DNA of 64,000 bases from NCBI GenBank assembly GCA_950022655.1, contig OX465584.1, positions 62,064,841 through 62,128,840 on the forward strand, in the 5' to 3' direction. The notes beneath the pieces are model-generated. The model worked only from the letters and a program-made list of their open reading frames with translations, was not told the origin of the DNA and ran no database searches. A program made the position numbers and the translations under genes. This document shows, one piece after another, positions 6,591 to 64,000 of this stretch (position 1 is the stretch's first letter; each line of letters starts with the position of its first letter). This DNA is from Alentia gelatinosa. Lineage: Eukaryota > Annelida > Polychaeta > Phyllodocida > Polynoidae.

Positions 6591-6619
6591 AAATCTGATA
6601 CCAAAAAAACAAAAAAAAG

Positions 6620-10917: not shown

Positions 10918-11330
10918 TAATTTATAGATATGATTTTCTAAATGAGCATATAAAAGCTTATACACAAACAAAAAATAGAATAAAAATGATTGGCCTATGA
11001 TATACCTATAATATACCAATGCTGGGGTTAATGATAGCAGTCAAGAACAAACTATCAGTCCACGAATGGCGACCATTGTTGACATAAAGACTGTTGATCA
11101 ACACAGAATGTATTCCCATTATCATCCCATTTCTCATACACTTTTCACCTTGTGATATCTTGATGTACCTGAACTTATATGTAGTATCTAGTGTATGTAG
11201 TCATACACCTCATCGGATGTAAACTTATTTGTGATCTTGTTGTAATTGTGTTCAACAGCACTTTTGGTGGAAGAACAGAACCAGAAGGAATAAACAAAAA
11301 AACAAAACAAAAAATGAAGAAAAGTGGCTG
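10918..11330 (+). other. 5' flank of transporter copy 1 and LINE empty site
   Basis: 10918-11034 is nearly identical to two separated pieces of copy 3 (56575-56597 and 63060-63155). Between them copy 3 has the 6.46 kb LINE, so 10930-10941 is its pre-insertion site. 11035-11315 is absent from copy 3 (insertion here or deletion there). No gene seen. Confidence 0.7.
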
Positions 11331-11408
11331 CAACGGGCCTTGAACCGCCAAGGTGGCACAATTTGGGATTATATGTCCAGTATTCTTGACCACTAAGCTC
11401 ACTCCCAA
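11331..11408 (-). repeat. tRNA-like pol III sequence (SINE head)
   Basis: On the minus strand, GTGAGCTTAGTGGTCAAGA resembles a tRNA A box and GGTTCAAGGCC a B box, about 45 bases apart. The acceptor ends do not pair, so it is not a functional tRNA. The same sequence lies at 63165-63245 before transporter copy 3. Likely a tRNA-derived SINE remnant. Confidence 0.45.
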
Positions 11409-11615
11409 CCGCTCAGTTGTCAGCAGACAATATGAACAAAACACTGAAATGCTGAGATGAAAACCTGAAAAAACTCTAAAGTTTGTCCTGTGATAATGTA
11501 TGTAACTGATGAACTATGTGTTATTGGAAATTTCTTTTCAGTTTAATGAACCGCTATTCTATAGTTTCTGTTGATCACTCTGATTATTCACACATTTCAG
11601 AGAAGTCCTATCAAG

Positions 11616-32620: not shown

Positions 32621-32817
32621 TATTTCATCTGTTCTAGAGTTTTTCCCTTTAGATTCACTTTCAGAGGTTTCTATGGTAGTTTTACTTGAAAATTTACCAT
32701 CAGATCGGTTTGTAATATTACATGAAGAATCAACAGAACACGGTGAGTAACAGACTTTCTCTTTATTACAAGCTTTGTAACAAGATGTAGATCGTGTTGT
32801 AATAGGTTGCTCGAAGT

Positions 32818-34686
32818 CTACAGGCTGGTGACGCAGGTTGGTCGCTGTACTCTCGGGTCTCGGCTCTGACGTTTGTCGGTGCAGCCTTGGCCCCTGCCTC
32901 CTCGGCCCCTCCCCCGCTTCTTTCCCCCAGGTGGGCCCGGGGGTGGGGGTTTGGGAAAATCTGTCTTCCCATCGGTCCCACTTTCCTCGTTGTCCGGTTT
33001 TACCACGGTAGAGGACGCCTTAGGGTTATTAAATGTTCCCCTGGCGGTGAATGGGTCGACGAGTTGGGAGTTGGGCGGGTCCCTTGTGGCCCGCCTGGCG
33101 ATTCGGTCAGAGAAGATGGCCTTCTCCTTCTTCCAATCGCGCTTCGCCGTTATGTCGGTATGTGCACGTGTGTCGGTGATCATGCGCCTGGCGGGCTCTC
33201 GGTCAATGCCTGAGCTTAGCATCATGCTGTAAATCATTCCGCTTACTTGCTCGCGGCGTGCCCTTTCCAGGTGCTGCTGCGCGCGTAGGGCTTCAGCCGC
33301 CATCTTGGTGATGCGTATAGCTGAGTCCCTGCATTCTGCTACGATACGGTCCCTTACGTCGGGGGTTATGTAGGCTGGGATGGGGGCGAGGCCCGCAGTC
33401 CAAGGTTCTACATGTTTCAGCTCGGTACATGACTCGTAGAAGACAGCCTTTGCTTCCGTCTTATGATACCTGCTATTAACCTCCCTGAGGTCGCGCCAGG
33501 CCAGGTGGGCGATCTTGGGTAGCATCTCATCGATTGCCTGTGAGGAAGAGACAAAATTTGGGTCATTAGTGATGTCTAGATTATCAGGCAACAGGGTTGA
33601 AAGATCAACATCGTCTACTTTAATGAAGTTGGTAAATTGATGTTCATTGTAAACATATTCATTGCCCCGGATATGGGGAGTGTTATAATACACCTTCCTA
33701 TCTGGGTGGGAACTCTTATTTGGGGTGTTTTTTTAAACTGGCCCCAGTTTGGTTCTGCCTACACCTTGTATCTCAGCATTCATCTACTTCTGAGTGTGTG
33801 TCGGTTCATGACTCTCGATGTTCATCGACTTTCGAGATTCAACCTGGGTGACAAGCTGGATGTTGTCGGAAGGTTCGTGTGAACTGTCCCGGCTGCATTC
33901 AGTGTCCAAACTCCACAGTAATTCCAGTGTGGAGTCACTGTGGATTTTGTTATTGGCACTTCCATGGGTATGCAATATACCCATAGATGTGTCCGGTTTG
34001 TCGGTAACTTGTTGTTCGTTGGGGTCCAAACTGGGGGCTGTGTGCAATACACGGGCCTTCAAAATAGTGTGCTGTGCACTATTGTTGACCATGTGCGCTG
34101 TGCACTGGTGCTTGCGAGTGGGACAGGTGCTACTGCTTCCTGTCTTAGTCGCGCCTCTACTGAGTACTGTACTAGTATTGGCTGTAAAGAAGTCACTGAT
34201 AAGTGACCATCTGAATCCCGTACGTGTACCCTCTCTATTATGGCATATAGTGGGTGCGCGACGGCTGCCCCCTCGGGCGCCGTCTCCTACTGCTTTGTCA
34301 CCCCTGACAATCTTGGGCTGTCCGGGTGGAAGGCAGTTAGTGTGAGAACTATGGCGGTGAATCGGTTTACTGGAGACGGCCGCCGTATGGAGCGGGTCTC
34401 TAGCGTGCGTACTGACATTGCAAGACAAACGGACACAGTGTTGAGCTTTGCTTACCTCATCGCCTGTCGGGGGACGGTCCACAGTGCCCTGCTCGCAGCA
34501 TACACCGTAGTCACTGACCGGGTCATTCGGCAAAGTATTGTTCGCCGGCAGGCCGATGTCATCGTCCGTCCGTTTGCGCTTGTTGAAGGTCAAGATGAAA
34601 CTCCCACTGGCGCTGGGGGTAGTCTCAAGATCACTGCTGGCGTCACTCGCTCTCCTGCGGCGGGGAGCCCTTTGCGGAGTGTGCAC
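32818..34686 (-). pseudogene. ORF1 of Penelope-like element 1
   Basis: One frame from 34686 to 32818, broken by two in-frame stops (33784-33786 and about 33733). The N-terminal half is Ser/Thr/Pro-rich and low in structure (starts MHTPQRAPRRRRAS). The C-terminal half has an alpha-helical domain containing LKHVEPWTAGLAPIPAYI and ends in a basic tail GGKKRGRGRGGRGQ that suits RNA binding. The same layout and the HxEPWxAG block occur in ORF1 of the second element (41801-43393), which supports a real conserved protein. Family unknown to me; role as an RNA-binding accessory protein is inferred. Confidence 0.6.
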
Positions 34687-34800
34687 ATTCTTGGCGGGGT
34701 GGTGGTCGTAGCTTGGTTGGCCATCGGGTCTCTAACAGTAGTCCTAAGGTCGGTGTACTGTGTAGAGCGTGTATGGAGTGTACAGGTAGGTACTGAGTAG

Positions 34801-35353
34801 TAATAAATGTCGACGTGATCGCTTCAGCGACTGCTGGTATGTGACTAGACTCTCTTCCCTGTTAGGTTCAGACTGAGGAAAAAATGTTAATGTCTGTTGT
34901 CAACCCTTTCCTTATTGGTTGTGTGGAGTCACATGGGTCCAATCCTGCATTCTTATTGGTCAAGACCGAGACAAAGAGAGGCGGGAAAGCTTCTGATCCA
35001 ATCAGAAGGTGCCTCTTTTCTGTCTTAGGCTTGAGGTAGCTGGTTCTTGGTGTCTTAGCACTGAATCCAGTCACCTGGTTGCCATTCTGGTGGTTCTGTT
35101 GTTTTCCACTAGATGGCATGACAGTGATTTTCTTTCACTTTTGTATACCAGGTGGAAGTTTTGTCCTATAAAGTGTGTAATTCTACTGACTTTATCATAC
35201 CAGCAGTTTCGATTATTGTTAATCTCATTCAGGCTATGATTGGCTGATCAATGTCGTCTTTGTTTGTTCGGTTACAGAGGCAGTGGTTGGGACCACACCA
35301 TACCTATGGTGTGTTTCTTTGACATTAGTGTAGTCTAGTCACATCATTTGTCA
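34801..35353 (-). repeat. Pseudo-LTR of Penelope-like element 1 (upstream copy)
   Basis: Matches 29862-30369. It ends at TTTGTCA (35353); the next bases, TCCTATCAAG, are the leader shared by all transporter copies. Because it reads toward the element on the minus strand, any promoter in it would face away from the transporter unless bidirectional. Confidence 0.8.
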
Positions 35354-35363
35354 TCCTATCAAG

Positions 35364-36389
35364 ATGATGTTTGGAAGGAAGGCCCTCCATGGCTATGGCT
35401 TTATAGCTATCATCAGTGTCTTCTTGGTCAGTTCAAGTACTGCTGTGCAACTTCTTCAGAGGGAAGTCCCTGACTTCGAATTGAGCCTCTTCAGGTACCT
35501 TGGTGGAATGATTCTGTCTGCAGCTTCCCTTTGCTTCTACAGCAAAGAAAACCTTGCAATATCAAAGGAGCAATATCCCTATATTCTTTTAATGTCTATA
35601 TCTACTTTGGGATTCAATATTTTCTTCTTTTATGCAAACTCTATTCTTCCACTGACCCATGTGGCAGGACTAACTCAAGCCTCTCGATGCATATCAATCT
35701 GCATTGCCTCAAAAATATTTCTGAAGGAAAAGCAAAAGAGTATAACTATTCTTTCCATCTTCGGAGGTTCACTTGGGAGTTTGTTTCTAGTACAGCCTTG
35801 GCTTGACTTTACGATTGGATTTACACCAGGATTTCTTGAACTGTATACCGGATCTATGAACATGTCAAATGACTTGAGTAATGTAACAGTTAATCATACC
35901 ATTCAAGTGGTATTCTCAAATTATCCTTGGCTTTTACCAAGTGGTTACCTAGCAGTGTTTATTGCTGCCATTTCTGATACTCCATATTTCTTGTCTGCAG
36001 GTGTTTATCTGAAGAATGTGAATCCTGCATTATTAATGTTTCTTACATCTACATTGTGTGTACCATCCAGTCTGGTGCTTTCAATGTATTTAGAGCAACT
36101 TGTTTTGGTCACAAATCCATATTCTATCATGTTGGTGTCAATTCATGTGTTCTGCATTGCAGTAGCAATTCTTGCAGAAGTGAAGGCTTGTCAACTGATC
36201 AATCCAACACAAGTGACCATATCTCAAAGTCTTTTAACCATAGGGAATCTATTGCCTCAGTACACCATACTAAGTGCACATTTGTATGGAAGAAGGAATG
36301 CTTTAGAAGTAATTGGCTGCATTATCCTGACTGCATCAGTGTGTTTGAATGGGCTTGTATCCACAGATAATGAAACACATTTAGGGTGA
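35364..36389 (+). CDS. EamA/DMT-superfamily transporter, SLC35G-like, copy 2
   Basis: 341 residues, the same length as copy 1 with no indels, and about 50 amino-acid differences by eye. Those changes are spread along the protein and many are conservative (FIAAISDTPYFLS against LLAAIAGIPYMLS). The start MMFGRKALHGYG aligns with copy 1. Same membrane layout: two EamA-like halves, with the sequon-bearing loop (NMS, NVT, NHT) between. Only 10 bases of the common leader precede the ATG; upstream is the pseudo-LTR, so the native promoter or 5' exon has been replaced or separated. Homology with copy 1 continues about 80 bases past the stop. The intact frame suggests constraint or recency. Confidence 0.75.
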   Translation: MMFGRKALHGYGFIAIISVFLVSSSTAVQLLQREVPDFELSLFRYLGGMILSAASLCFYSKENLAISKEQYPYILLMSISTLGFNIFFFYANSILPLTHVAGLTQASRCISICIASKIFLKEKQKSITILSIFGGSLGSLFLVQPWLDFTIGFTPGFLELYTGSMNMSNDLSNVTVNHTIQVVFSNYPWLLPSGYLAVFIAAISDTPYFLSAGVYLKNVNPALLMFLTSTLCVPSSLVLSMYLEQLVLVTNPYSIMLVSIHVFCIAVAILAEVKACQLINPTQVTISQSLLTIGNLLPQYTILSAHLYGRRNALEVIGCIILTASVCLNGLVSTDNETHLG

Positions 36390-41537: not shown

Positions 41538-41780
41538 TATGACCGGCCCCTGTACACACAGAGCGGCGTCAGCGAACGCAGCCGACCGCATAACGTCACA
41601 GACGTTGTCACGCGTGAGTGGGGAAAAGCGTCATTAGCAACCAATGAACGTCGAGTAAACACATACGCTCGACCAATGGGAAGAGACGGCGGATTCGCGA
41701 ACCTGACCGGGTTTAAACGCTCAGGCTGGCAGTTGTGGTTGTGTTACCATAGGGTCACATACTCCGTCTTCCACACATTG
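41538..41780 (+). repeat. Pseudo-LTR of Penelope-like element 2 (5' copy)
   Basis: 243 bp, from TATGACCGGCCCCTGTACAC to CGTCTTCCACACATTG, repeated at 45246-45488 with only a handful of differences. ORF1 starts 21 bases after it. It has no similarity I can see to the pseudo-LTRs of element 1 apart from composition. Confidence 0.85.
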
Positions 41781-41800
41781 ATTTAACTCAACATACCGGC

Positions 41801-43393
41801 ATGTCCAACGAACGTGCAAGCAGTGCGGCTAAGATAGGTTCTGTCTGGGCTGACATTGCAGTACAACAAAACCACGAAGAGAGCGAAAGTATGGATACTT
41901 CGGCTCCGCCGTGTGTACAGAACGAAGCATGCGGTGTGTCCGTAGACACTCCGATGCTCGAACTCCCGAAGGCGTCCAATGCCGCCACGGGAGACGACCG
42001 CGGCCGTGCCGTCAACACCCCGGTGGACCCGCGGACTCCGGCCGTCAACCCCCACTGCGCTCGCCCGGGCACCAGCCGAGGCAATGACGGCGACAACCCG
42101 TTCGGCGGGCCGTTGCCCCCCGTGGCGACGGGAACCGCACCAACGGGCCCCACAGGCGAACAGGTAAATGCTGCTATTTCCTCTTCACTGCCATTCAAAT
42201 CACGGCCGTTACGACAGTGTAAAATAGCTGATTTCTGCAGCCTTAGTCGTAACACTGTGAAGTTACAGACATCTGACAGTGCGAGTGACAGCACCACACG
42301 CATTCTCAGTCAGTCTGAACCCGGACCCAGTCTAGTCCAGGGCGACACTGTAAGCATTACACACTCTAATGCATGTATTTTGAACACGCCACATAAGGGT
42401 GATAACTCTACACCCGGCACAAATAGTGACATAAACCTCACTATAGGTTCTGAAAGGCATGAGCCCACACCGAATGTTGTGAGCAAATGCAAACGCAAAC
42501 GTGATCCCTCGGGAGGACGTGACAATACACTCAATATTCTCATAGACTTGTTGAATACGGATGAGGTACAACCCACCCCATCTAAAAAACGCTTTACGGG
42601 GCTAGGACCAGTATCAAAGTTAGTTTCTGAAACTACCCTCGTTTCTAAAAGCCCAGATCTAGAAGTGAGTCAGGAAACTGTCTCACAACTAGACAACAAT
42701 AAGTCGAACAGTTCCACCAACAAGGACAGTTCGCCTTGCACCAGTATAGGGAATACATGTAGCTATGATCACCATATGCTAAACACCCCTAACCCATTTG
42801 CAAACATGCACCCCCGTGGTATAGAAACTGACGATTGTTCTCTCTCTCTTCAGAGTATCGACAGCATGGTGCCCAATTCCGCGAAGGGTTTATGGAGAGC
42901 CGCCAAGTCTGAGGCAAATCGATGTGTGAAGGCACGTCTACACGCACAATGGTACGCCAGGGCTCAACAACTGTCCCACATAGAGCCTTGGTATGCGGGG
43001 ATCACCGAGCCCCCGCAATACCTTCGTGGCACCATGCTGATGACCGAAATCGAGAGAATTCGGGTAAAAGCAGCGAACGACATCATGGAGGCGACGAAAA
43101 ACTACCTCTACGATGCAAGCAGTGATGCCTATGATGCCTCAGAGGCGTATTATAATACGGTGAGGAGCTTGGTGTCCAACAACAAGCCAGCTGAGGAGAC
43201 GCTAAAGATTATGAAGATAATCCGAGAGCAGAACTCTAAGGCGAATGCCTACGAAAGTGATACCGATAAGGCTCGCCTGAAGGCCAGGATTGACACTATC
43301 GCAGAGAGACGCCCAGTTTCTCTTGATTTACAAGACCCGGCCACTGCCGCCAGAAACCAGGCAAAGCCCCAGAACGAAAAAGCCGGTTTTTAA
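41801..43393 (+). CDS. ORF1 of Penelope-like element 2
   Basis: 530 residues from an ATG (MSNERASSAAKIG). Residues 1 to about 350 are Ser/Thr/Pro-rich and probably disordered, with a basic patch KCKRKRDPSGG near 230. From about 365 a helical domain has LWRAAKSEANRCVKARLHAQ and LSHIEPWYAGITEPPQYLRG; the HIEPWYAG core matches element 1 ORF1. The frame stops at TAA 43391-43393, in a T-run (GGTTTTTAAG). Reading one base off continues into KPAAQTGQRGGRGKRRQGRN, the basic tail expected from element 1, so the stop is probably a frameshift. Likely an RNA-binding partner of the RT; function inferred. Confidence 0.65.
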   Translation: MSNERASSAAKIGSVWADIAVQQNHEESESMDTSAPPCVQNEACGVSVDTPMLELPKASNAATGDDRGRAVNTPVDPRTPAVNPHCARPGTSRGNDGDNPFGGPLPPVATGTAPTGPTGEQVNAAISSSLPFKSRPLRQCKIADFCSLSRNTVKLQTSDSASDSTTRILSQSEPGPSLVQGDTVSITHSNACILNTPHKGDNSTPGTNSDINLTIGSERHEPTPNVVSKCKRKRDPSGGRDNTLNILIDLLNTDEVQPTPSKKRFTGLGPVSKLVSETTLVSKSPDLEVSQETVSQLDNNKSNSSTNKDSSPCTSIGNTCSYDHHMLNTPNPFANMHPRGIETDDCSLSLQSIDSMVPNSAKGLWRAAKSEANRCVKARLHAQWYARAQQLSHIEPWYAGITEPPQYLRGTMLMTEIERIRVKAANDIMEATKNYLYDASSDAYDASEAYYNTVRSLVSNNKPAEETLKIMKIIREQNSKANAYESDTDKARLKARIDTIAERRPVSLDLQDPATAARNQAKPQNEKAGF

Positions 43394-43477
43394 GCCTGCA
43401 GCCCAAACCGGTCAACGGGGAGGGCGGGGAAAACGCCGCCAGGGCAGAAACCCTCCAATGACTCGGTACTAGAGTTA

Positions 43478-44146
43478 TTGGAAATGGTCCTGAAGAACAA
43501 TAACATTGTGTTCAACGGAGACCACTACATTCAAGTCAGAGGGACAGCCATGGGGACGAGACTAGCTCCGTCCTATGCCAACCTGTTCATGGAAGCTGTA
43601 GAGGAGAACCTTCTATCTAGCTACCACATCAAACCCAAAACCTGGTGGAGATATATAGATGATATATTCTTCATCTGGGAGCATGGTGATTTGGAACTCG
43701 AGAAATGGTTTAAACACCTCAACTCGGGACATCAATCCATTAAATTCACCATAAATAAATCCAAGAAGGAAGTAGCCTTCCTGGATACTTGGGTAAGGAT
43801 GAAAGATGGGGAGTTGTACACAGATCTGTACACGAAACCGACAGATGCGAACACGTATCTCAGGTATGACTCATCGCACCCACCGGCCACCAAAAGAAGT
43901 CTCCCATACTCCCAACTACTAAGGATCAAACGGATCTGCAGTAGAAAGGGAGACTTCGAAAAGCATGCAGACAAGAAGCTGGAACAGTTCCGACATAAGG
44001 GATACCCAGAGAGGATCCTGGAGGACTGTAAATGCAGAGTAGATTTACAACCCAGACGGGAACTACTCGGAAAAAAAAACCACTCCCGTAAACAGGGAGC
44101 GAGAGGAAAAACTTTTCCTCATCTCCAAATACAGACCAAACGGTAA
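43478..44146 (+). pseudogene. Penelope-type RT, C-terminal half only
   Basis: Begins abruptly at the segment LEMVLKNNNIVFNGDHYIQV, which in element 1 lies about 270 residues into the protein. It keeps GTAMGTRLAPSYANLFME, YIDDIFFIWEHG, VAFLDTWVRM and TKPTDANTYLRYDSSHPP. The N-terminal RT blocks (fingers, first catalytic Asp) are deleted. The frame ends at 44146 after a shift near 44090; homology continues in the next ORF's frame (FLISKYRPNGNKVGD). Not functional as it stands. Confidence 0.85.
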
Positions 44147-44150
44147 TAAG

Positions 44151-44777
44151 GTGGGGGATACAGTGAGCAAAAACTGGGACATACTGGGAAGGTCCATCAC
44201 GACAAAACAGATGCACCGGAAAACCCTAGTAAAGGGCTACCGGAGACCCAAGAACTTGAAGGATATTCTAGTTCGAGCAAAACTGAGTACCAATTTGGGG
44301 AATGGAAAGAAGAACCAACCATTCCCAGAGGGAGCCCAGAAAAACGAGTGTAAAAAGAGAGACTGCACATATTGCAAACTCATCAACAAAGGGGGTGAGG
44401 TCATCTCAAACACCACAAAACAGAAACATCCCACCAAGTGGAATGTAACATGCAACAGTTCAAACGTGATCTATTGCATCGAGTGCAAAAGGTGCCACAT
44501 GCAATATGTGGGCCAAAGAAAAATCAAAGAGAGGATGTATGAACACCTCAGGAACATCAAAAAGGCAAGTAACCAAAATGATGTCCCGACGCACTTCAAT
44601 GAATGCGATCACCATGGAACCGAAGATGTAGAAGTACAAATACTGGACTTCATCTTCAGGCACCCAAACAGTAAGCGGGCCGGTATCCTAAGGAACGGAA
44701 TTGAATTCAATTGGATCCACCGGCTCAAACGCCAATCCCCATGGGGATTGAACACAATGGACAACCGGTACGGTTAG
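44151..44777 (+). CDS. GIY-YIG endonuclease domain of Penelope-like element 2
   Basis: 208 residues in an open frame, originally the C-terminal part of the RT polyprotein. Order: thumb-to-linker region (NWDILGRSITTKQ, GYRRPKNLKDILVRAKL); a Cys-rich segment CKKRDCTYC with later CNSS...CIECKRC that may bind zinc; the GIY-YIG-type core NVIYCIECKRCHMQYVGQ, then ERMYEHLRNI; HFNECDHHGTEDVEVQILDF; and a C-terminal segment KRAGILRNGIEFNWIHRL with the Glu/Asn region expected of the active site. It would nick target DNA. The domain looks intact, but without its RT half the element cannot move itself. Confidence 0.8.
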   Translation: MGDTVSKNWDILGRSITTKQMHRKTLVKGYRRPKNLKDILVRAKLSTNLGNGKKNQPFPEGAQKNECKKRDCTYCKLINKGGEVISNTTKQKHPTKWNVTCNSSNVIYCIECKRCHMQYVGQRKIKERMYEHLRNIKKASNQNDVPTHFNECDHHGTEDVEVQILDFIFRHPNSKRAGILRNGIEFNWIHRLKRQSPWGLNTMDNRYG

Positions 44778-53310: not shown

Positions 53311-56300
53311 TGCAAGTCACTGATGCTAGTACTGGTTAAATGAATATGAAGGATCATCTGGCTTGGGAAAATAAAATTGAATTTATCTAATCAATTTTGT
53401 AAGATATATGTATAATATCAAAATTAGTTGAGGATAATAGAGTATTGAATATTATACATTAGATAAAATATATACCCTACGAAGGTAGGGTTTGTTGATA
53501 AAATACATAGTATGGTAGAAAAGTAAAAGAAAAAAGGATGTTGGTGGGTTGGAAAAAATAATGGTGTGTTGAGTGGGTTGAAGAATGGTGATTGGAATGG
53601 TGAGGACGGAAGCAGAGTGTGTGGGCATGTATATGTGGTGTTGAGAAATTACACCAGGTGGCCTCAGTGAGCCAGCCTAGATGCCTACTCATCGATGCTG
53701 CACCCATCGTGGCATACGGAAACTCAATGTTAAGCTTTTTGGATTTTAGACGTACAGGATAATACATGCAGTAATTGGGCTTCCTGGGTCACCTAATACA
53801 TATTTGCGTGATCAACAAGCTTTTTGTTAGGCATTTCCTTAATTTTTATTGGTCTTCATCTATCAAAAGTTCCTATATAAAGTGGACTATGGTTATATTT
53901 CTCTGATTTTGAGCATTATTTTTATTTTCTTATTCTGTTGTGTGCTACTTACAAAACTTGTAATATCATTTACATATATCACTCTTCAGTCAAAAATCAT
54001 CATTAATAAGTGAACACTTTTTCTGAGAAACCATGGTCTTTTCGACGTATGTCAACAGTCATGCAATAAGGAAACACTGATCTGTCACATTTCACCACAC
54101 AAGTTCAAATTTAGAACTTCCTAGAGATACTTAGGAGAAACCGAACGAGAGTTAGCCTTGTCAATGTTTATGCCATGATGGGCAGGTTGTGTATTACTAC
54201 ACGAGGCGTTTGCCGAGTTTAGTGAGTAGCAGACCTGACCTGAGTGGTATGAACATTGACAAGGCTAACTCAAGTTCAGTTTCGTATTTATCCTACCCCA
54301 TCTCACCGATATACAGAGAATATTTGTAATTATCCATGTTAGTAGTTATCAATGCTGCCAGATCTACTTTCATTATCTCGTCCCTGATTGGTCCGTTTTT
54401 TTATTCACCTCGGTGCATAATTAATACTTTATCCAACGCTCCGTCAAATACATTGAGTCAATGTTAAACCTATGGCATTTTTTATTAGGGCTAGGATAAA
54501 GACTCATACATTTGAAATTCTAACCAGATCTTTGAAAAGTAATGTCCAACATTAATTTTCTGCCTTCCTTCACGTAGTTGCAAAACATAAATAGTTTTCC
54601 TATTCATTGATAAATTTGTTCCAAAGAGAAAGAAGGTGATCTATGTATGTGCTAAAATACCAAAGACAATATTGTTTCATGTTTCCAAAGATACAATAAT
54701 TTCCATGTCAGACGTTATGCCTTCAAAGCTTCTAGGAAGTGGTTAACTTGTATCTAATTGTTATATGTCTTAGCACCAGCAAAGGTCAGGCAGTTAAAAC
54801 CAGCTGACTCAAATACCAGCTGATGCCAATGGTCATTTTATTGACGCTGTATGGATAAACCTTGTCATATTTGAAAGTTGCAAAACTGTACTAACTGTGG
54901 TCAATAGAGAAATGATTTTGAATTTGAAAAAAATAAAATCTTTTGTATATCATCTTTCTTGACAACCTTCCAAAATGATTTGCTATGATTTTTCCCTGCA
55001 AGTTAAACATAGTTTCTGCCATCAAGACAGTGGTTCAACACATTTTATGTACCTTTGAAAACACTCTGGGCACTTTTGAATATTCTCTGACAAGGAAATC
55101 TATGCTACTTCCCTAACCATCGCCTTGTGTGTCTATTTGTCAATATAAGCTACCCGACATGCATACAGAAAGAAAGTGGGTAACTTCCTTTTCTCGTCGG
55201 ATGAAGTTCAATGTGACCACTCTAAACTCTAGATGATGTATTTAGCGCGTGCAAGCACACTCTAAAAACCAGACACATGATAACATTAAATGGTGATGGT
55301 CTTCCTCTTCAACGAAAAAGAATGATCATTGCCCAGGTACCTGAAAACCAAAGGACTGTCACTTGATAGTCACGGTAGCTGCCCTGCTAAGACCCAAAAT
55401 TCCATTTATTAGAGCATGCTTGCACATGCTAAATACAGCAACTAGAGATTAGAGTCAGGGTTAGAGTGGTCACATTGAACTTTCAGTGTGCTTCCAGAAA
55501 ACTATCCCTTTACTATCTGCATGCTGTTCACTGTGATAGTGAGAACAGATCAGGGAGCCAGTGTCTCAGGGTCTTAGAGGTCTGCCCAGCTGACCATGAC
55601 CAATTACTCAAGACCGAAATACCTCATTGACCCACTGTTGCTTGATATGTTTTGATGCTAGACTCAGGCACTTGACTGGGTGAGTAATTGACTGGGTGCA
55701 AGTGGTTGCAGAAAACAGCCCATAGACTGAATGTACCCCAAACCTTTTAGTTGTTATTCATTTATAATTGCACGCTCATTCATCAATGATGAACATTCTT
55801 TTTGCTCCTAGTTGTTGTTGGGTACCTAAACCTGAACCCATTGTATAAGAACATCCATATCATATTTGTGTAATATTTACGCAGGGCACAGACATTGCAC
55901 ACCAGCAGATCACAATGAAGTTTAATTGATGTCACAGATGCCAGTTTTGTTGGTTTGTTTGTTTGATTTAATGTTCAGTCAAAGATTATAGGCCATGTTC
56001 AGACTTTCCCAATATTCTTTTCCACCACAAGCCCAGAAGTAAGGAAATTAGGTACATATACTGAGTTTAAACTAATGATAAAGGAACTGTCCCTGGCTGC
56101 TCTAATGAAATTATAGAGTTTGAGAAATGTATGAAGATGTTTGATTACCTGTGCGATGTCTTATATAATATGAATGTATGATGGAATACCTCACATTATC
56201 CTTGACTTACTGATGTTTTCCATGAAGTTTATATAAAATAATGCACTGCACGAAAACCACTATTTTACATATATATACGCCATCGCAATAACAAACATAT

Positions 56301-56456
56301 CGGCTGTATTGTGCCTTGTTTACATTTGTATACGCCTCTTATCCGCGTCTGCGTTTCGGGCGTCTATGAGGTAGTTTCCATATGTAGACAGGCGTAACTT
56401 GGCTGTATTTCGCGCCTGGCATATCCAAGATAAAGCATGCTCTGTGCGATATATAT
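52823..56456 (+). repeat. Segmental duplication, copy 3 (partner 3352-6590)
   Basis: Near-identical to copy 1 outside the nested insertion at 52903-53310. At 56456 the match to copy 1 stops inside the TATACGCC element (ATATATACG) and jumps to sequence equal to 9795-9860, so copy 3 lacks what corresponds to 6595-9790. Contains a TTTATCCTACCCC MITE at 54287-54500. No genes. Confidence 0.85.
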
Positions 56457-56457
56457 A

Positions 56458-56597: not shown

Positions 56598-57328
56598 GAC
56601 TTGAGGAGAAATTGGAGGCAAAGTTGGCTACTCTCACTGATACCATTGAGGAAGTGAAAAATAGGCAACGAGATCAGAAGCCAACTGAGTTGTCTACCCC
56701 ATCGTCTCTATCTGGTAGATACCAATCGCCGCGCCGTCTCAACATCTATATTGATGGTTTGCCGGAGGGTGGTGGTGGCCAAGCAGAGGATACCTATGCA
56801 GTGGTGTTACAATTGCTAAAGGGATTAGACAGCTCAGTTACCATAGCAGATATTTCCTATGTCCAGAGGATAGTTCATAAGGTTGCCAGTACCAGACCGA
56901 ATAAGATTCTGTGTTGCTTTACGACAGTAAGAATGCGTGATAATGTTATCCGCTTAAAACAGAACATTCGCAATTTGAGGGGTTATAATGGTGTGTACAT
57001 AAACCCGGATGAGGACGCGGACACACGAAATGCGAAAATCAGGGCTAGGCTAATGGCTTCGCACTGTCGCAAAAAGAAGTATAATGTGGTGCTTAAGGGC
57101 GACAAAATCACGGTGAATGGGGTAGAGTACAGCTCTAGGGAGATGGGAAATATCCCAGATGAACTAAAACCACCTAAGTCGCTAACTCTGGGGAATGATC
57201 AGGTACAGCGGCAACGAGAGAAGGATCATGGTAATGACAAACCGGGATCAGCTTCGAATCCCCTGGATACCCTCTTTCGGGAGGATGATCCGGTGGATCA
57301 TGAGTTCATTGGTCAAAAGGGAAACTAA
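56598..57328 (+). CDS. L1-type ORF1 RNA-binding protein, N-terminally truncated
   Basis: Open from the insertion junction; the native start is missing. Residues 1-25 form a heptad-like coiled coil (LEEKLEAKLATLTDTIEEV). Next comes an RRM-like domain (RRLNIYIDGLPEGG, then ADISYVQRIVHK, NKILCCFTTVRMRDNVI). The C-terminal domain follows (GVYINPDEDADTRNAKIRAR, VVLKGDKITVNGVEYS). This is the L1 ORF1p arrangement: trimerising coil, RRM, CTD, acting as an RNA chaperone in the retrotransposition particle. A 45-residue charged tail follows. The stop (57326-57328) lies 29 nt inside the next ORF, whose ATG is at 57300 in the +1 frame, suggesting reinitiation or frameshifting. Confidence 0.75.
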
Positions 57329-57800
57329 ATCAGGAATAGTATTCCGAGGCTATAAATCACCTCTCAGCAACTTCTTTAATGTTGCTGTAGATCATGATGG
57401 TACAACGTATCAGACGGCTGAGCATCTTTATCAAGCCTGGAAGTGCAAATCTAATGAAAATGTTGAGTTGTTTAACATGGTCCTGAAGGAAACATCCCCC
57501 CTGGGAGCAAAGAAAATAGGTGATAAGTGTCGGGAGTCACAGGATTGGATAAATTCCAGGTCTGAAGTGATGGCCACGATAGTGAATCTAAAGTTCAGAC
57601 AACACCCGGCTATGTGCAGGTACCTGATATCCACGCACCCCAAACCCCTGATTGAGGCTACACGTAACCAGTTCTGGGCCGGTGGGGCTGATCCGGGATC
57701 GACGGTATATGAATCTGGCCTGTACAAGGGACAAAACGAGCTGGGCAAAATACTGTCTAGTCTGCGAGATAATCTGAGACGTGAAGACCAGTGTTCTTAA
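57300..57800 (+). CDS. NADAR (YbiA-like) domain protein encoded within a LINE
   Basis: 166 residues from the ATG at 57300. An in-frame ATG at 57195 would add 35 residues entirely within ORF1; I prefer 57300 because the domain starts at residue 13. Visible family blocks: VFRGYKSPLSNFF (13-26), YQTAEHLYQAWK (37-48), GAKKIG (69-74), DWINSRSEVM (82-91), LKFRQHP (97-103), LIEATRNQFWAGG (117-129) and GQNELGKILSSLR (144-156). The NADAR/YbiA family is about 160 residues long and includes N-glycosidases acting on riboflavin-pathway intermediates or ADP-ribosylated substrates. Here the domain is complete, and Glu41, Trp83 and Trp126 sit at conserved-looking places. Located between ORF1 and the SGNH ORF on the same transcript. 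Its role in a LINE is unknown. Confidence 0.75.
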   Translation: MSSLVKRETKSGIVFRGYKSPLSNFFNVAVDHDGTTYQTAEHLYQAWKCKSNENVELFNMVLKETSPLGAKKIGDKCRESQDWINSRSEVMATIVNLKFRQHPAMCRYLISTHPKPLIEATRNQFWAGGADPGSTVYESGLYKGQNELGKILSSLRDNLRREDQCS

Positions 57801-58296
57801 TTTCATGTGAGGTGCACCCATAGCTTTTGATTGTTGCTCATTATGTGTTTGTTTTATACTGGTGAGTGCGTTTGGATACGAGCGCAACCAATTGATACAT
57901 ATTGACCTGGTTTTGTCACCTATATTTGGCGGTTCTTTTTGGATTGCCCCTGACTGTAGTGTGTTTCGTCTGTCCGCCCCCCTTTCCGTTAATTGGATGG
58001 CTGTGCCTGGCTGTGCTTGAATGCATGCTTGACGGCGTGACTGGCGGTAGTGACCTTTCTGTTATATACGGGTGTTGCTATTCATTCTATGAATAACGTA
58101 TCTGACTAACTGCTGTGAGGATTTGTATGCTCACCTGTTTCTGGACACGCCTCTTTTTACGGATTATATCCAGACTCACCCAAGGAGTGTGGTCTACAGT
58201 ATTATTTACTGCCATATAAACTGTTACGTATGGATTGTGAACCTTGAAATTTAGTTCTGTTTTACCAGCTACTGTGTAAGCGCTGCCTTTTTGAGT
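57801..58296 (+). other. Inter-ORF spacer of the LINE
   Basis: About 500 bases between the NADAR and SGNH ORFs. A 64-residue hydrophobic frame (57902-58096) lacks an early ATG and a family signature; not annotated as a gene. Confidence 0.4.
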
Positions 58297-58935
58297 ATGT
58301 CTTATCTATGCATTGGTGATTCGAGAATAAGATACCTGGAGAGTGCTGCAGTCCAGGTGGGTGTGCTGGGCTTGACTACCATATGCTGTCTGGGAGCTAC
58401 TATAGACAGAACATTCAAGGCGTCCATGAGTGCAATCGGGTCTCATGGCTGGTCTGCAATTTATGTACTTAGTGGCATAAATGATGTGACAAGATTGGAA
58501 AAACACCCAAGACAAGTGGTCATGCCAGAGGTTGATGTTGACAGCCTTGCAGGTTTTGTGACCATGGAGTTTATAAATGTAATTGATAGAATACATGCGA
58601 TACTGCCCTCTGTGCCAGTTATCATAGCAACTCTGTATGGTGTTGATTTGGAAGCAGCAAGTGGCGGAAATGTAATGGTAGGACATCAGGATGCATTAAA
58701 TCGCACTGTCAAAATCATAAATGAAAACATTGTTGCCATAAATGCGCGCATTAATGCTCGGACACCCTATGTTGGGAGTCTAGTTCATAAGAGGAAGGGT
58801 AGGGGCAGAGGCTTGATCAATGTTTATGCTGTGCTAGCCGATGGGGTGCACCCACATGCATCTGCTTTGAGCAGGCTTGGGCGTTTGCTTCATGATGCTA
58901 TACGAGCTAATTCCGTGAATGGTGTCCACCAATAA
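58297..58935 (+). CDS. SGNH/GDSL-type hydrolase in the LINE
   Basis: 212 residues from ATG 58297. Block I is LCIGDSRIRYLE with the nucleophile Ser9; block III is LSGINDVTRL (Gly60, Asn62, Asp63); block V is DGVHPHASALSRLG with Asp182 and His185 as the catalytic pair. This is the full set expected of an SGNH esterase. Esterase domains are known in ORF1 of some CR1 and L2 elements, where they are fused to other ORF1 domains; here it is a separate ORF downstream of the RNA-binding protein. Substrate unknown; membrane or lipid interactions have been suggested for the family. Frame open throughout. Confidence 0.75.
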   Translation: MSYLCIGDSRIRYLESAAVQVGVLGLTTICCLGATIDRTFKASMSAIGSHGWSAIYVLSGINDVTRLEKHPRQVVMPEVDVDSLAGFVTMEFINVIDRIHAILPSVPVIIATLYGVDLEAASGGNVMVGHQDALNRTVKIINENIVAINARINARTPYVGSLVHKRKGRGRGLINVYAVLADGVHPHASALSRLGRLLHDAIRANSVNGVHQ

Positions 58936-58975
58936 TTTCTCTTTTTTTCTCCCCCTCGTTTACGGGAACTGATAT

Positions 58976-59105
58976 GTGTGAGCTTAGATCACAATAATAT
59001 GGTGTCATTGAGTGATGATGATTTCTTTGTGCAAATTTTGTGTGTGCGCTCAGCTCATAATAATATGGTGTCATTGAGTGATGATGATTTCTTCATGTAA
59101 ATTTC
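58976..59105 (+). repeat. Two 65 bp direct repeats in the LINE spacer
   Basis: AATAATATGGTGTCATTGAG, followed by TGATGATGATTTCTT, occurs at 58994 and 59059, an exact 65-base spacing. Lies between the SGNH ORF and the hydrophobic ORF. Could be a variable UTR repeat or a structured RNA signal. Confidence 0.7.
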
Positions 59106-59266
59106 TGTGTGCCTATGATGTATGATGTTCATTGGGTAGAGACGTGTGGACTGTCACTGTCATTTATTTTTTGCTTCTTTTTTTTCTTAATTATCGTTTT
59201 GTTTACTGAGATAACAGGTTTTTGGGCTCGCCATGCCATTTTCTTGTCTTTTTTAAATTGTTCTTG

Positions 59267-59692
59267 ATGTTTTTGTTCGTACGCAACTATGGGGTTACTC
59301 TACTTGAGTCTATGTTTGTAGACTCATGTTATGCCTCTTACCTGGATAGAATATTAACTATACAGGTCGTATGTATATCACTTTGTTTCTTTATTCCTGT
59401 GGTAACTGTGTCTTGTGAAATTGTCTGTTTTGTGTTAGAGTTTTTTTCTGGTGGTATGATGAGGGGTTTTGAGGCTCAGTCTTGGTGGAGGTCATGTTAT
59501 CCCGCCATGTTTCTACAAGTTGAGTATTTAGGTTGTCCTATGATTGATCAATATTTGCTGTTCTTGTACTGGATGTGGTTATATGATGGGTTGTGCAACA
59601 TCTCCTCCTGGTTTGTGTTGTGGTGGGGAAATGTTGTTGATTTGTATGTTATGGTAATCAGTATGTTACGTTTCTGGACGGATATTTTGTAA
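59267..59692 (+). CDS. Hydrophobic ORF ending in TAATG overlap with ORF2
   Basis: 141 residues from the first ATG (the open frame extends back to 59222). Very rich in Phe, Leu, Val, Cys, Tyr and Trp, with about four possible membrane segments (e.g. VVCISLCFFIPVVTVSC, LLFLYWMWLYDGL). Its TAA (59690-59692) shares its last A with the ATG of the endonuclease-RT (59692-59694). TAATG overlaps drive termination-reinitiation in some LINEs. The region is T-rich, which makes hydrophobic frames by chance more likely, and I recognise no family. It may be a true accessory protein or a translational relay. Confidence 0.4.
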   Translation: MFLFVRNYGVTLLESMFVDSCYASYLDRILTIQVVCISLCFFIPVVTVSCEIVCFVLEFFSGGMMRGFEAQSWWRSCYPAMFLQVEYLGCPMIDQYLLFLYWMWLYDGLCNISSWFVLWWGNVVDLYVMVISMLRFWTDIL

Positions 59693-62535
59693 TGGTGGGA
59701 TATATTTTTTCGGAAGATATAAGTAAGCAGCGGGGTCTCTCATTAGTTACTATTAATACTAGAAGTCTTTATAAAAAACTAGAACAAGTCAAATATATGT
59801 TTAAAACTGTCGATTTTTTAACTGTGACAGAGTCCTGGCTGACTGAGAAATACGACCACACCATGTTACACATAGATGGAATGAAAAATTTCCGACTTGA
59901 TAGACACAGTAAAACGGCGACAAGAGGTGGTGGCCTTATTTTATATGTTAACCAGAACCTAGCGAAGTTAACCCATAAAATTGACAATAGCTCGGTTAGT
60001 AATGAACATGTGGAGATCCTTACCTGTACTTATATTCAGCCACACCGGAGGAAGATGTTACTGGTTTCAGTTTATAGACAACCGAGAGGTAACCCACAGC
60101 TGGCATATGACATACTGGATAATATATTAAATGATCCTGCTTTTGTGGGTTTTGAGACTTGGGTGCTTTGGGATATGAATATTAATTTAAATGTATCAAT
60201 GAGTAGAAAATATAATATTATGAATGAATTCCTAGTTAAAAATAACCTGAGTATAGTTAAGACCCATGACACTTTTTTGCATAAATTTGGGAACTCCAGG
60301 ATTGATCACATTTATACCGATTCCAGACATGTTGCCAGTAGTGGAAATGTTAACTGTTATGTTCGTGATCACATACCTATCTACGTTATAAGAAAATTTC
60401 AAAAGCCAGTGGTGAGCACAAGATCATTTCAGGGTCGACGTTATCATAATGTTTCAGTTGCTGGATTGCAGGATCATATTGATGATTTTGCTTGTGATGC
60501 GAATGTTGATCTTTCAGCATTTGATCAATACAAATTGTGGGAAACTCATTTAAATGTATACTTGGATACGGTGTGTCCTAAAAAGATAACGAAGGTAAAA
60601 GAAAGGGATGGGATTGATTTGCCTATCGATGCCCAGAATCTTATATTGGAGAGGGCCTGGTTGTTGGCTCGCTGTAGGGTTAATGCTAATAATACAGATT
60701 TGCGTAGATGTAGACGGATATCGAGGAGAATAAATTTGCTAATTAGGCAGGACATGTCCCGAGTGGTACGTCAACATGTGTCGGAGAATGTGGGAAACCC
60801 AAAGAAATTTTGGAAAACAGTTAATGGACTCTGGTCTCCAAAAGATACGGACACTTGTTATCAGATTCAGGGGACAGACGGTGTGAACGTTCGGGATGTG
60901 GAACTTCCAGGTTATTTAGATAATTATTATTCAACAGCAGTGACAGACACGATGCAATCTGGGTGTCTAGCAGACTTTGATGTAAATTTGTACCCAAATG
61001 GTGAGATTGATTTATTTGAGATTGATTTGGAAAGGACCAAAGAGCTGCTAAAGAAAATAAAATGTAACAAGTCCTCGGGAATCAAGGATATGAGTACTAT
61101 GTTTTTGAAAATGTCTTTTAATCTAAGACCAGATGTACTACAAACTATAATAAATAGAGCGATTAATGATGCAGATTTCCCAAGTGAATGGACACGAGGT
61201 ACTATCTCACCGCTTCCAAAGATTCCCCATCCTGCGTTCCCAGGAGATTTACGCCCTATAACTACTTTGTCGACAATGTCGAAGATCCTGGAGTATGAGA
61301 TCCACCATCAGCTTGTTTCTGTGCTTCTTGAACGTCGCTGTTTTTGGGAAACCCAGTTTGGTTTCCTGCCGGGGAGGTCCACGGGGCAGGCTGTTTTTCG
61401 GCTGTTGGCCACGCTTTTTGCTAGTATTGATGGACGCAGTAGTGCAGTCTGTGCTTTCGTGGACCTCTCCAAGGCTTTTGATTGTGTACCACATGTGGGA
61501 CTGTTAAAGACTCTTGCGGCTATTGGTTGTACCAGGAGGGTTTTGAAACTGTTGAAATCGTATTTTATTGTCAGGTCGCATGTAACCAAGATTGGTGATA
61601 CCTTATCGGATGAAATCAGGGTGAAAACAGGGGTGCCGCAGGGGTCCGTTTTGGGCCCCGTACTTTTTGTTCTTTACCTAAACAACTGCGTTGATATATT
61701 GAAGCACTCGGGGTGTATTTTATATGCTGACGATATTGTGTTAACCATAACTGGGAGGGATGGTGATATCATGGCGGAATTATTGCAGAATGACTTATGC
61801 GAACTGAACAAATGGTTGGTCAATAGAAATTTAAAGATAAACAAAAAGAAGTCGAAAATTATGTGGTTCGCTGGATCCAGAAAGATTAACATCGAGCAAT
61901 ATAAGGTGAAACTAGATGGTATGATATTAGAGGTCGTTGATAGGTTTTCGTATCTTGGTGTTTTAATTGATGACAAACTCAACTTCACACCATTTTATAA
62001 CAGATTGAAGCGCGATTTTCAACTGAAATTGTTCAAGCTGCGTAAATTACGGTTCTTTATTGACGCCAGTACATCGATATCCATCCTAAAAACCATGATG
62101 TTAACTAAGCTCGAATATTGTAGTTTTATTTGTGTTTCACTTACTGAGACTCAAAAAGGAAAGCTCCAGATCTTATTTAACAATGCCCTTTGTGTATGTT
62201 TTCGCTGTGGTGTTGATGTACGATTGAGTATAGTATCGATGCTGCAGAGGGCAAATATCATGACTCTGGAGGCAAGACGCAATGTACAACTACTATGTTT
62301 TCTGTATTGGTGGGCCTCTGATCGGGATAATCAAATTGTTGAAAATGTGAGATTGACAAGGAGTACTGAAAAGATTAAAATTAGACTAAAACGACCGCAA
62401 ACAGAGATGTTCAGAAGATCACCGCTATATGCTGGCAAAATGTTATGGGATATGCTTCCCGTAGAAGCTCAGCGCATAGAAACTAGACACCTCTTTAAAC
62501 GATGGTTAAAACGTGACGTATTTGATGATCAATGA
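59692..62535 (+). CDS. LINE ORF2: APE endonuclease and reverse transcriptase, intact
   Basis: 947 residues, no stops. APE endonuclease at 1 to about 235: ITINTRSL-type start (LVTINTRSLYKK), VTESWLTE with the catalytic Glu, VLWDMNINL where GDFN is usual, RIDHIYTD, and VRDHIPIYVI where SDH is usual. RT at about 480-760: LRPITTLSTMSKILEYEI, QFGFLPGRSTGQAVF, AFVDLSKAFDCVPHVGLL, GVPQGSVLGPVLFVLY, YADDIVLTI, then RFSYLGVLIDDKLNF. The C-terminal part has RRNVQLLCFLYWWA and RSPLYAGKMLWDML, as in CR1/L2/jockey-group LINEs. It nicks target DNA and reverse-transcribes from the nick. Main catalytic residues are present, and the two altered endonuclease positions are odd. Starts by TAATG coupling to the upstream ORF. 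Confidence 0.9.
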   Translation: MVGYIFSEDISKQRGLSLVTINTRSLYKKLEQVKYMFKTVDFLTVTESWLTEKYDHTMLHIDGMKNFRLDRHSKTATRGGGLILYVNQNLAKLTHKIDNSSVSNEHVEILTCTYIQPHRRKMLLVSVYRQPRGNPQLAYDILDNILNDPAFVGFETWVLWDMNINLNVSMSRKYNIMNEFLVKNNLSIVKTHDTFLHKFGNSRIDHIYTDSRHVASSGNVNCYVRDHIPIYVIRKFQKPVVSTRSFQGRRYHNVSVAGLQDHIDDFACDANVDLSAFDQYKLWETHLNVYLDTVCPKKITKVKERDGIDLPIDAQNLILERAWLLARCRVNANNTDLRRCRRISRRINLLIRQDMSRVVRQHVSENVGNPKKFWKTVNGLWSPKDTDTCYQIQGTDGVNVRDVELPGYLDNYYSTAVTDTMQSGCLADFDVNLYPNGEIDLFEIDLERTKELLKKIKCNKSSGIKDMSTMFLKMSFNLRPDVLQTIINRAINDADFPSEWTRGTISPLPKIPHPAFPGDLRPITTLSTMSKILEYEIHHQLVSVLLERRCFWETQFGFLPGRSTGQAVFRLLATLFASIDGRSSAVCAFVDLSKAFDCVPHVGLLKTLAAIGCTRRVLKLLKSYFIVRSHVTKIGDTLSDEIRVKTGVPQGSVLGPVLFVLYLNNCVDILKHSGCILYADDIVLTITGRDGDIMAELLQNDLCELNKWLVNRNLKINKKKSKIMWFAGSRKINIEQYKVKLDGMILEVVDRFSYLGVLIDDKLNFTPFYNRLKRDFQLKLFKLRKLRFFIDASTSISILKTMMLTKLEYCSFICVSLTETQKGKLQILFNNALCVCFRCGVDVRLSIVSMLQRANIMTLEARRNVQLLCFLYWWASDRDNQIVENVRLTRSTEKIKIRLKRPQTEMFRRSPLYAGKMLWDMLPVEAQRIETRHLFKRWLKRDVFDDQ

Positions 62536-63060
62536 TGTATTGGATATGTGAGATAGCCTTTTGTATTAATTTTTGATCTTGAAATGAGGGATAATATGAA
62601 TAATTAAGATATGAATAATGTTTTTCGAGATACTCTCTTATTGCCACTAGTTTTTCTACTCATTTACTTTTTTTTATGTTTTTTTTTCTATTACTTACTG
62701 TGATATGTTGCCAGGTAAACATATAACATGGTATGTAAAAACTGATACTTCAATATGGAAAACTTTTTTCCGATATCTTTGAGAGTTTGCTTGTGTATCA
62801 TGTCTCAATACTGTAATTGTCTTTGTTTTGTCAGTGTGTCTAAATGGCAACTTGTTTTTCGTTGTTTCCATGTTGTACAATCTGGCCCATGTTAAAGATT
62901 TGGAATATGTATTATATATACTGGGAGGTTTAACACACATGGCCTGTCTGTTTATTTGTGGTTGTTAATTTTGTAACGGTTTGACGCTATTGGTTGAAAA
63001 TCATCTACAATTGTACATGAATCCTTAAACGTCAATAAAGAACAAATTTACAACAACAAA
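62536..63060 (+). other. 3' UTR of the LINE
   Basis: AT-rich with T-runs, ending AATAAA (63034-63039) then ACAACAACAAAAA, a short A-rich tail at the insertion border. No ORF of note. Confidence 0.65.
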
Positions 63061-63164
63061 AAATGAGCATATAAAAGCTTTTAAACAAACTAAAAATAGA
63101 ATAAAAATGATTGGCCTATGATATACCTATAATATACCAATGCTGGGGTTAATGGAGAAAAGTG

Positions 63165-63245
63165 GCTGCAACGGGCCTTGAACCGACAAGGTGGCACAAT
63201 TTGGGATTATATGTCCAGTAGTCTTGACCACTAAGCTCACTCCCA
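63165..63245 (-). repeat. tRNA-like pol III sequence, copy 3 flank
   Basis: Same sequence as 11331-11408 with few differences (B box GGTTCAAGGCC, A box GTGAGCTTAGTGGTC on the minus strand). Lies about 210 bases before the transporter start, as in copy 1. Confidence 0.45.
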
Positions 63246-63453
63246 ACTGCTCAGTTGTCAGCAGACAATATGAACAAAACACTGAAATGCTGAGAGGAAA
63301 ACCTGAAAAAACTCTAAAGTTTGTCCTGTGATAATGTATGTAACTGATGAACTATGTGTTATTGGAAATTTCTTTTCAGTTTAATGAACTGCTATTCTAT
63401 AGTTTCTGTTGATCACTATGATTATTCACACATTTCAGAGAAGTCCAATCAAG

Positions 63454-64000
63454 ATGATGTGTGGAAGGAAGGCCCTCATTGGCTATGGCTATATAGCTAT
63501 TATTATTGTCTTCTGGTGCAGTTCAAGTACTGCCGTGCAACTTCTTCAGAGGGAAGTGCCCGACTTCCAATTGAGCCTCTTCAGGTATCTCGGAGGAATG
63601 ATTCTGGCTGCAGCTTTCCTTTGCTTCTACAACAAGGAAAACCTTGCAATATCCAAGGACCTATATCTCTATATTCTTCTGATGTCTATATGTGCTCTGT
63701 TATGCAATATCTTCTACTTTTATGCAAACTCCATCCTTCCACTGACCCATGTGGCAGGATTAATGCTAGCCTCTCGAGCCATAGTAATCTGCATTGCCTC
63801 AAAAATATTTCTGAAGAAAGAGCAGAAGAGTATAACTATTCTATCCATCTTCGGATGTTCACTTGGGATATTGTTTCTAGTGCAGCCATGGCTTGAGTTC
63901 ACAAATGGATTTAAACCAGGATTTCTTGAACTGTATACAGGATCTCAGAACATGTCAACAGATTTGAGTTATGTTTCAGTTGATCATACCACTCAAACAG
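63454..64000 (+). CDS. EamA/DMT-superfamily transporter, SLC35G-like, copy 3 (partial)
   Basis: Starts MMCGRKALIGYGYIAIII at 63454 and stays open to the window edge (182 codons seen of an expected 341). Over the visible part it matches copy 1 base for base except for a small number of substitutions (e.g. WCSSSTAV for WVSSSTAV, FYNKENL for FYSKENL) and has no indels. The 5' flank (63060-63453), including the CAG before the start, is also that of copy 1. This is the youngest pair of the three copies. Same two-fold membrane layout and caveats as copy 1. Confidence 0.75.
   Translation, partial: MMCGRKALIGYGYIAIIIVFWCSSSTAVQLLQREVPDFQLSLFRYLGGMILAAAFLCFYNKENLAISKDLYLYILLMSICALLCNIFYFYANSILPLTHVAGLMLASRAIVICIASKIFLKKEQKSITILSIFGCSLGILFLVQPWLEFTNGFKPGFLELYTGSQNMSTDLSYVSVDHTTQT

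Follow-up and report, generated by a model that had tools for sequence, protein, structure and literature searches.

A YbiA-type NADAR domain predicted to end the ORF1 protein of an abundant LINE clade in the polychaete Alentia gelatinosa

A LINE retrotransposon in the window (the whole 64,000-nucleotide stretch of Alentia gelatinosa DNA analysed here) carries a NADAR domain, which raises the question of whether this domain is an integral part of the element and what it might do there. The domain itself is real: the translation of 57300-57800 (+) is a complete NADAR, matching PF08719 at E=1.7e-26 with 93.9 bits against the curated superfamily cut-off of 35.1 (Pfam). The sequence-only reading of this DNA, which had placed a complete domain here and proposed this Pfam search as its check, thus holds on this point, as does its list of NADAR blocks (LSNFF, EHLYQAWK, W...VM, KFRQHP, FWAGG, GQNELG), all present in the window translation. 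A PDB sequence search returned YbiA (2b3w, E 1.1e-11) and a NADAR (8bau, E 6.3e-8), and an AlphaFold2 model built from 50 sequences (mean pLDDT 91.9, pTM 0.87) has the YbiA fold, aligning by Foldseek to 8bau (E 1.1e-9, TM 0.82 by query length) and to 2b3w (E 8.6e-9, TM 0.74). Among viral predicted structures (BFVD), the model's matches included phage and giant-virus proteins as well as invertebrate nidovirus replicase polyproteins, and the top match was an unnamed entry. None of 2000 dinucleotide shuffles of 57329-57800 contained an open frame of NADAR length.

The LINE and its parts are laid out as follows:

56598 to 63062 (3' bound approximate), + strand: LINE insertion, 5'-truncated, about 6.46 kb, delimited by an empty paralogous site and flank identity
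56600 to 57328, + strand: C-terminal part of ORF1, with a coiled-coil and RRM-like region; the N-terminal part is lost by truncation
57300 to 57800, + strand: NADAR domain, predicted as the native C-terminal domain of ORF1p; a one-base offset separates its frame from that of ORF1 in this copy
58297 to 58935, + strand: SGNH/GDSL esterase-like ORF in its own frame, with GDS, GxND and DGVHP motifs by eye
59210 to 59692, + strand: hydrophobic 160-aa open frame whose stop overlaps the ORF2 ATG as TAATG
59285 to 59293, + strand: conserved 9-mer AACTATGGG in the spacer upstream of ORF2
59692 to 62535, + strand: ORF2, APE-type endonuclease and reverse transcriptase (EN-RT), 947 aa

That the NADAR lies inside a LINE insertion, as had been proposed from the sequence, is borne out by sharp bounds and by flanks 96-97% identical to a LINE-free paralogous stretch at 4624-12162. 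The window contains a segmental duplication, in which 54500-56457 pairs with 4624-6580 (96.2% identity), 63061-63154 with 10940-11033 (96.8%) and 63151-64000 with 11313-12162 (97.4%). The first duplicate (4624-12162) has about 10 bases where the second has the LINE, from 56598 to about 63062, and the empty paralogous site is at 10851-11033. Because the first duplicate lacks the LINE, insertion took place in only one of the paralogues, and the simplest order puts it later than the duplication; the element starts inside ORF1, and the window copy is therefore 5'-truncated. A search beside the insertion found no target-site duplication, about 10 bases of target are missing, and the 3' end is A-rich, after AATAAA. 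The first duplicate also holds an EamA-type transporter ORF (11565-12638), with DNA-similar ORFs from 63403 onwards and at 35334-36389 (87% identical). Other groups of reverse transcriptase (RT)-bearing ORFs in the window, at 31234-34731 (-), 41753-44777 (+) and 186-1412 (-), are unlike the LINE and look Penelope-like and DIRS-like by eye.

The domain recurs in the genome assembly (1,234,393,884 bases, 1.23 Gb, in 101 contigs). A first look gave 2960 NADAR candidates, of which 150 were scored, the window's included, and all 150 matched at E<=1.7e-35. For closer comparison, 23 of the 149 others were fetched, comprising 20 of the 24 best-scoring (the four others being C1 copies with nearly equal scores) and three lower-ranked copies picked for their long frames. 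An EN-RT region lies downstream of the NADAR in 20 of the 23, or 17/20 without the long-frame picks. L128 is an exception: SGNH and EN-RT sequences 98% and 96% identical to those of the window lie about 16 kb further on, which suggests that this element was interrupted. Searched from the other end, 32 EN-RT places (counted by hand) reach query residue 12 or less, and 18 of these are preceded on the same strand by a NADAR place from the best-150 list, at a distance of 16 kb in one case. Among EN-RT places that look truncated are L155 and L157, with no SGNH in 1.5 kb (upstream, for L155), and L159, with neither NADAR nor SGNH in 3.6 kb upstream; L155 and L159 have no listed NADAR upstream. NADAR and RT thus travel together in many copies, a point that the sequence-only reading had proposed to check.

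In the window, the NADAR occupies a 166-codon frame that had been taken for an ORF of its own; relatives indicate that it does not represent a native gene. The sibling L128, whose NADAR is 98% identical, has the C-terminal part of ORF1 and the NADAR in one open frame; the window differs by a single additional A, in an A-run close to the ATG at 57300. ORF1-like sequence and NADAR share a single open frame in 20/23 fetched copies (17/20 without the three chosen for long frames), the exceptions being L129, which has no detectable ORF1, L133, with a stop between the two, and L143, where the frames differ. A separate NADAR gene was rejected, the frame split being peculiar to the window copy. So was the idea that a NADAR gene had inserted secondarily into a single copy: no flanking repeat exceeds chance, and relatives have the NADAR fused. 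Five long frames of 703-902 aa carry the NADAR towards their C-terminal end (Pfam, E<=1.1e-25), and where such frames survive, the domain is the C-terminal domain of a predicted ORF1 protein of 700-900 aa. The ORF1-NADAR frame of L149 reaches 1188 aa; ahead of the NADAR in this copy (positions 1-2382, reverse complement), no sense frame has a stop over some 2.3 kb, possibly reflecting tandem repeats.

The NADAR had also been described as lying between an L1-type ORF1 and an SGNH ORF. Neighbours resembling both are there, the first with a weak family match (E 0.009) and the second with one below the cut-off (E 2e-4). The match of window ORF1 to human L1 ORF1p (E 0.009) came from a single sequence, and L1 ORF1p was not among the matches of a six-sequence ORF1 profile at E<=0.01, which were YbiA, NADAR, coiled-coil or fibrous proteins only. 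Window ORF1 aligns with that of its relatives at 33-93%, and the ORF1 structure model is poor (pLDDT 45.6). The SGNH-like ORF matched Lipase_GDSL_2 at E 2e-4, under the Pfam cut-off; its counterpart in L131 scored best with ApbA_C (E 2e-5, above that family's cut-off) and reached E 0.001 with Lipase_GDSL_2, while that in L134 matched Lipase_GDSL at E 0.005. No PDB match was found for it at E<=1. The ORF is present in 19/23 fetched copies, or 16/20 without the three long-frame picks.

Two 64-nt direct repeats, 89% identical, follow the SGNH ORF at 58975-59104. The hydrophobic frame further downstream was equalled in length in 1 of 2000 shuffles; of 17 other copies bearing the 9-mer, 13 keep it open over 155-299 aa and 4 have it broken. 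With pN/pS of 0.6-1.1, indicating weak protein constraint, it is doubtful that it encodes a further protein. The 9-mer AACTATGGG is invariant, third codon positions included, in 16/19 other spacers (among L129-L147), with a near match in L149 and none in L148 or L150, and may be an RNA signal. ORF2, for which the genome holds 52 matches, carries the TGVPQGSVLGPVLF motif and matched RVT_1 at E 4.8e-35 and Exo_endo_phos at E 0.12 only (Pfam).

The window RT reads GVPQGSVLGP where human L1 has GTRQGCPLSP, and a PQGS(V/I)LGP motif occurs in at least 89 of 120 listed relatives. We take motifs of the GVPQGSVLGP type to mark the Jockey/CR1/L2 group, and the RT signature therefore appears Jockey-like, unlike L1. 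The best PDB match of RT profile A3 was L1 ORF2p, at 183 bits including the endonuclease; R2 scored 116.

Beyond the host genome, protein and assembly searches covered few animal genomes and say little about how widely the element is spread. A single NADAR query gave two distant protein matches, and a NADAR profile gave 1929, at most 39% identical among the 120 listed. Single NADAR or RT queries found no relatives among viral contigs; the RT profile found two loci there, one of which (L001) looks like phage, and the NADAR profile found 497; the active-site count used 80 of these, taken with flanks of 600 bases. Among phage records, 565/50,697 had a NADAR match. LINE-type RT contigs were also found in bacterial and archaeal assemblies (37 loci, L003-L039, several from mussel symbionts) and are evidently eukaryotic contamination; no NADAR was detected in these 37 or in the two viral loci (best E 0.68), many of which reach little upstream of the endonuclease.

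Phylogenies of the two domains point to a shared history. In the RT tree (midpoint rooting), the 19 tips from NADAR-bearing LINEs, one of them the window's, all fall in a single clade (support 0.958), separate from 36 RT sequences of LINE-type loci in other assemblies, 60 protein relatives and a different LINE from the window; copies with fewer than 250 aligned residues in one piece, L147 and L149 among them, are omitted. All 22 LINE tips of the NADAR tree likewise form one clade (support 0.997) against 88 other NADARs, 62 from the protein database and 26 from viral contigs, in a set restricted to copies with at least 140 aligned residues, with one third of the viral loci and with no RNA-virus sequences. 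NADAR and RT distances are strongly correlated over 18 copies (Mantel r 0.95, with 0/2000 permutations as high). Overall, RT and SGNH have diverged more than the NADAR: RT is the less conserved in 150/153 pairs of these 18 copies, with mean distances of 0.43 for NADAR and 0.50 for RT, and over 17 copies NADAR compares at 0.43 with 0.58 for SGNH.

Selection was estimated from 18 pairs by the pairwise Nei-Gojobori method. In eight closer pairs, where pS is near-saturated (0.76-0.92), pN was 0.09-0.19 for NADAR and 0.19-0.29 for EN-RT. Comparisons of the window with L129, L130, L131 and L132 gave NADAR pN of 0.09, 0.11, 0.19 and 0.19 at pS of 0.83, 0.80, 0.87 and 0.92, and EN-RT pN of 0.22, 0.22, 0.28 and 0.29. 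The contrast weakened in more distant pairs: NADAR pN equalled ORF1 pN in L139-L146 (0.23), was 0.22 against 0.29 in L134-L145, and was 0.34-0.36 against 0.37-0.40 in the outer pairs L148-L150 and L148-L149. Near-identical pairs gave a NADAR dN/dS of 0.12 for window-L128 and, with few changes in each, 0.28 versus 0.20 for EN-RT in L129-L130 and 0.27 versus 0.12 in L131-L133. The simplest account would be that the NADAR was acquired once, before the families diverged, and inherited with the RT under purifying selection. Since LINEs took helicase domains from RNA viruses earlier (PMC5563155), an RNA virus is a possible source of the domain.

At the active site, Glu41, Lys48 and Glu119 of the window align with E88, K95 and D171 of the E. 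coli C7 NADAR, which are important for its removal of ADP-ribose from guanine (PMC11543638). Among scorable copies these are conserved in 20/20, 20/20 and 19/19, respectively, and the window shares with all 19 the catalytic Glu that the YbiA family has in its last strand (position 119); viral NADARs have Glu41 and Lys48 in 80/80 and Glu119 in 69/80. Position 123, three before a conserved Trp, is Asp in 118/118 protein relatives, 79/80 viral NADARs, 12/19 scorable copies and L148-L150, but Asn in the window and in 7/19 scorable copies (L128-L133, L136). The window thus lacks Asp123, a feature defined here by near-invariance among relatives and not by a published definition. Position 127 varies along with it: Gly in 118/118 protein relatives, 79/80 viral NADARs, the 12 other scorable copies and L148-L150, it is Ala, Val or Asp in the Asn123 copies, which retain Glu41, Lys48, Trp83, Glu119 and Trp126. 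Because Asn123 is present in the window and seven further copies, the Asp-to-Asn change is a property of a subfamily, not decay of the window copy. In nematode SNA-3, residues were mutated as homologues of those critical in YbiA (PMC9303266), and by its spacing to the Trp, the Asp at position 123 appears to correspond to one of them.

We conclude that the window LINE, truncated at its 5' end, belongs to an abundant clade of multi-ORF LINEs in which ORF1p ends in a YbiA-type NADAR, an integral, old and selected domain, and we regard this structural and evolutionary part of the explanation as nearly certain. The domain probably matters to the element's spread, because most copies examined keep the ORF1 fusion and conservation is stricter than in RT. 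At a probability of roughly 45%, we infer that the NADAR de-ADP-ribosylates the element's RNP or cDNA against host ADP-ribosyltransferases. ORF1p, taken to coat RNA like the ORF1p of other LINEs, would carry the enzyme in the RNP; host ADP-ribosyltransferases would put ADP-ribose on guanine of element RNA or cDNA, or on element proteins; and its removal by the NADAR would protect reverse transcription or integration. NADARs, an oomycete one included, hydrolyse guanine-ADPr, and animal guanine transferases (pierisins and clam CARP-1) make such links, on which NADAR action is unconfirmed according to the authors, though NADARs are active on the linkage type (PMC11543638). For NADARs of RNA viruses, a role in counteracting ADP-ribosylation by the host has been put forward (PMC9503650), and an anti-ADP-ribosylation role of the LINE domain is plausible. 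Counting against this mechanism are the Asn123 of the window subfamily, set against a near-invariant Asp in relatives, and the near-identical pairs L129-L130 and L131-L133, with NADAR dN/dS not below that of EN-RT; the Asp-to-Asn change may have altered the chemistry in the window's subfamily.

RNA processing is the main rival to this mechanism. The NADAR of ORF1p could serve RNA handling and not defence, acting on ADP-ribosylated, NAD-capped or repair intermediates or recruiting cap-binding or splicing factors, which its fusion to ORF1, an RNA-binding protein by type, would favour. In nematodes, SNA-3 carries three NADAR domains; it takes part in spliced-leader trans-splicing and is in contact with CBC-ARS2 (PMC9303266). 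RNA processing has been suggested for retrotransposon NADARs (PMC12477816). However, the literature consulted names no RNA substrate of a retrotransposon NADAR, and every observation is common to the de-ADP-ribosylation reading, from which the sequence does not separate it; we consider RNA handling unlikely. Quite unlikely, in our judgement, is that the NADAR of the window subfamily lost catalysis and was retained in ORF1p to bind ADP-ribose or nucleic acid: Asn123 and a non-Gly residue 127 in the window and seven copies, with low pN within the subfamily, would fit, but a mere binding module need not keep Glu41, Lys48, Trp83, Glu119 and Trp126 intact. That one LINE copy captured a NADAR gene of host or viral origin by chance, without function, might be suspected from the single NADAR in the window and from its absence in 37 LINE-type loci of other assemblies, many reaching little upstream of the endonuclease. 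It is refuted by the 150 scored genome matches, the fusion, the co-inheritance with RT and purifying selection, which leave it a negligible probability; a NADAR confined to the window copy, the outcome that the sequence-only reading had said would overturn it, is excluded by the genome copies and co-inheritance.

A bolder form of the de-ADP-ribosylation reading, which we hold to be doubtful, is that the RNA-packaging ORF1p of the clade includes, as an essential domain, a nucleic-acid de-ADP-ribosylase that undoes host guanine ADP-ribosylation of RNA or cDNA, the subfamily's active site having changed in response; if true, nucleic-acid ADP-ribosylation would be an animal anti-retrotransposon system. 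The role of NADARs in animals is described as unsettled (PMC11125620), and many of the domains added to LINE ORF1 likewise lack a settled use. A domain under stricter conservation than RT, in a parasite facing host defence, points to a strong pressure. Intact copies, the natural Asp/Asn split and published guanine-ADPr assays make the de-ADP-ribosylation hypothesis directly testable.

The sequence-only reading knew of no LINE class with a NADAR, a claim overtaken by a 2025 report of NADAR-like domains in ORF1 of several Tx1 LINE families of Crassostrea gigas, which also describes a NADAR in Pol of Ectocarpus Gypsy elements (PMC12477816). The presence of a NADAR in a LINE is thus known in brief, with that paper as the prior report; in the main texts of open-licence papers, we found no further account of NADARs in transposable elements, nor of the fusion order, copy number, selection, co-inheritance or active-site split of a LINE NADAR. 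The oyster elements share with the window's a NADAR-like domain in the ORF1 of a marine invertebrate LINE, across several families; they are filed as Tx1, which belongs to the L1 superfamily (PMC11203168), whereas the window RT has GVPQGSVLGP where L1 has GTRQGCPLSP, and the two may still belong to one clade. The Ectocarpus Gypsy elements likewise represent a retrotransposon lineage keeping a YbiA-family NADAR, but they are LTR elements of a brown alga with the domain in Pol. The window element has putative counterparts of the coiled-coil/RRM ORF1 and SGNH esterase of Jockey-superfamily LINEs, along with an APE-type endonuclease and RT as they have; their esterase is part of ORF1, whereas the window's esterase-like ORF is separate, and NADAR is not among the ORF1 types described in the relevant passages (type II, with coiled coil, RRM and CTD; esterase) (PMC4120745, PMC3905857). 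The YbiA and guanine-specific NADARs (2b3w, 8bau; PMC11543638, PMC11125620) are alike in fold and in the equivalents of Glu41, Lys48 and Glu119, and the window NADAR differs in its fusion to a retrotransposon ORF1p and in the Asn123 of its subfamily. NADARs in polyproteins of invertebrate RNA viruses (PMC9503650) are, like that of the LINE, carried by an RNA-based parasite, in their case a virus and not a retrotransposon.
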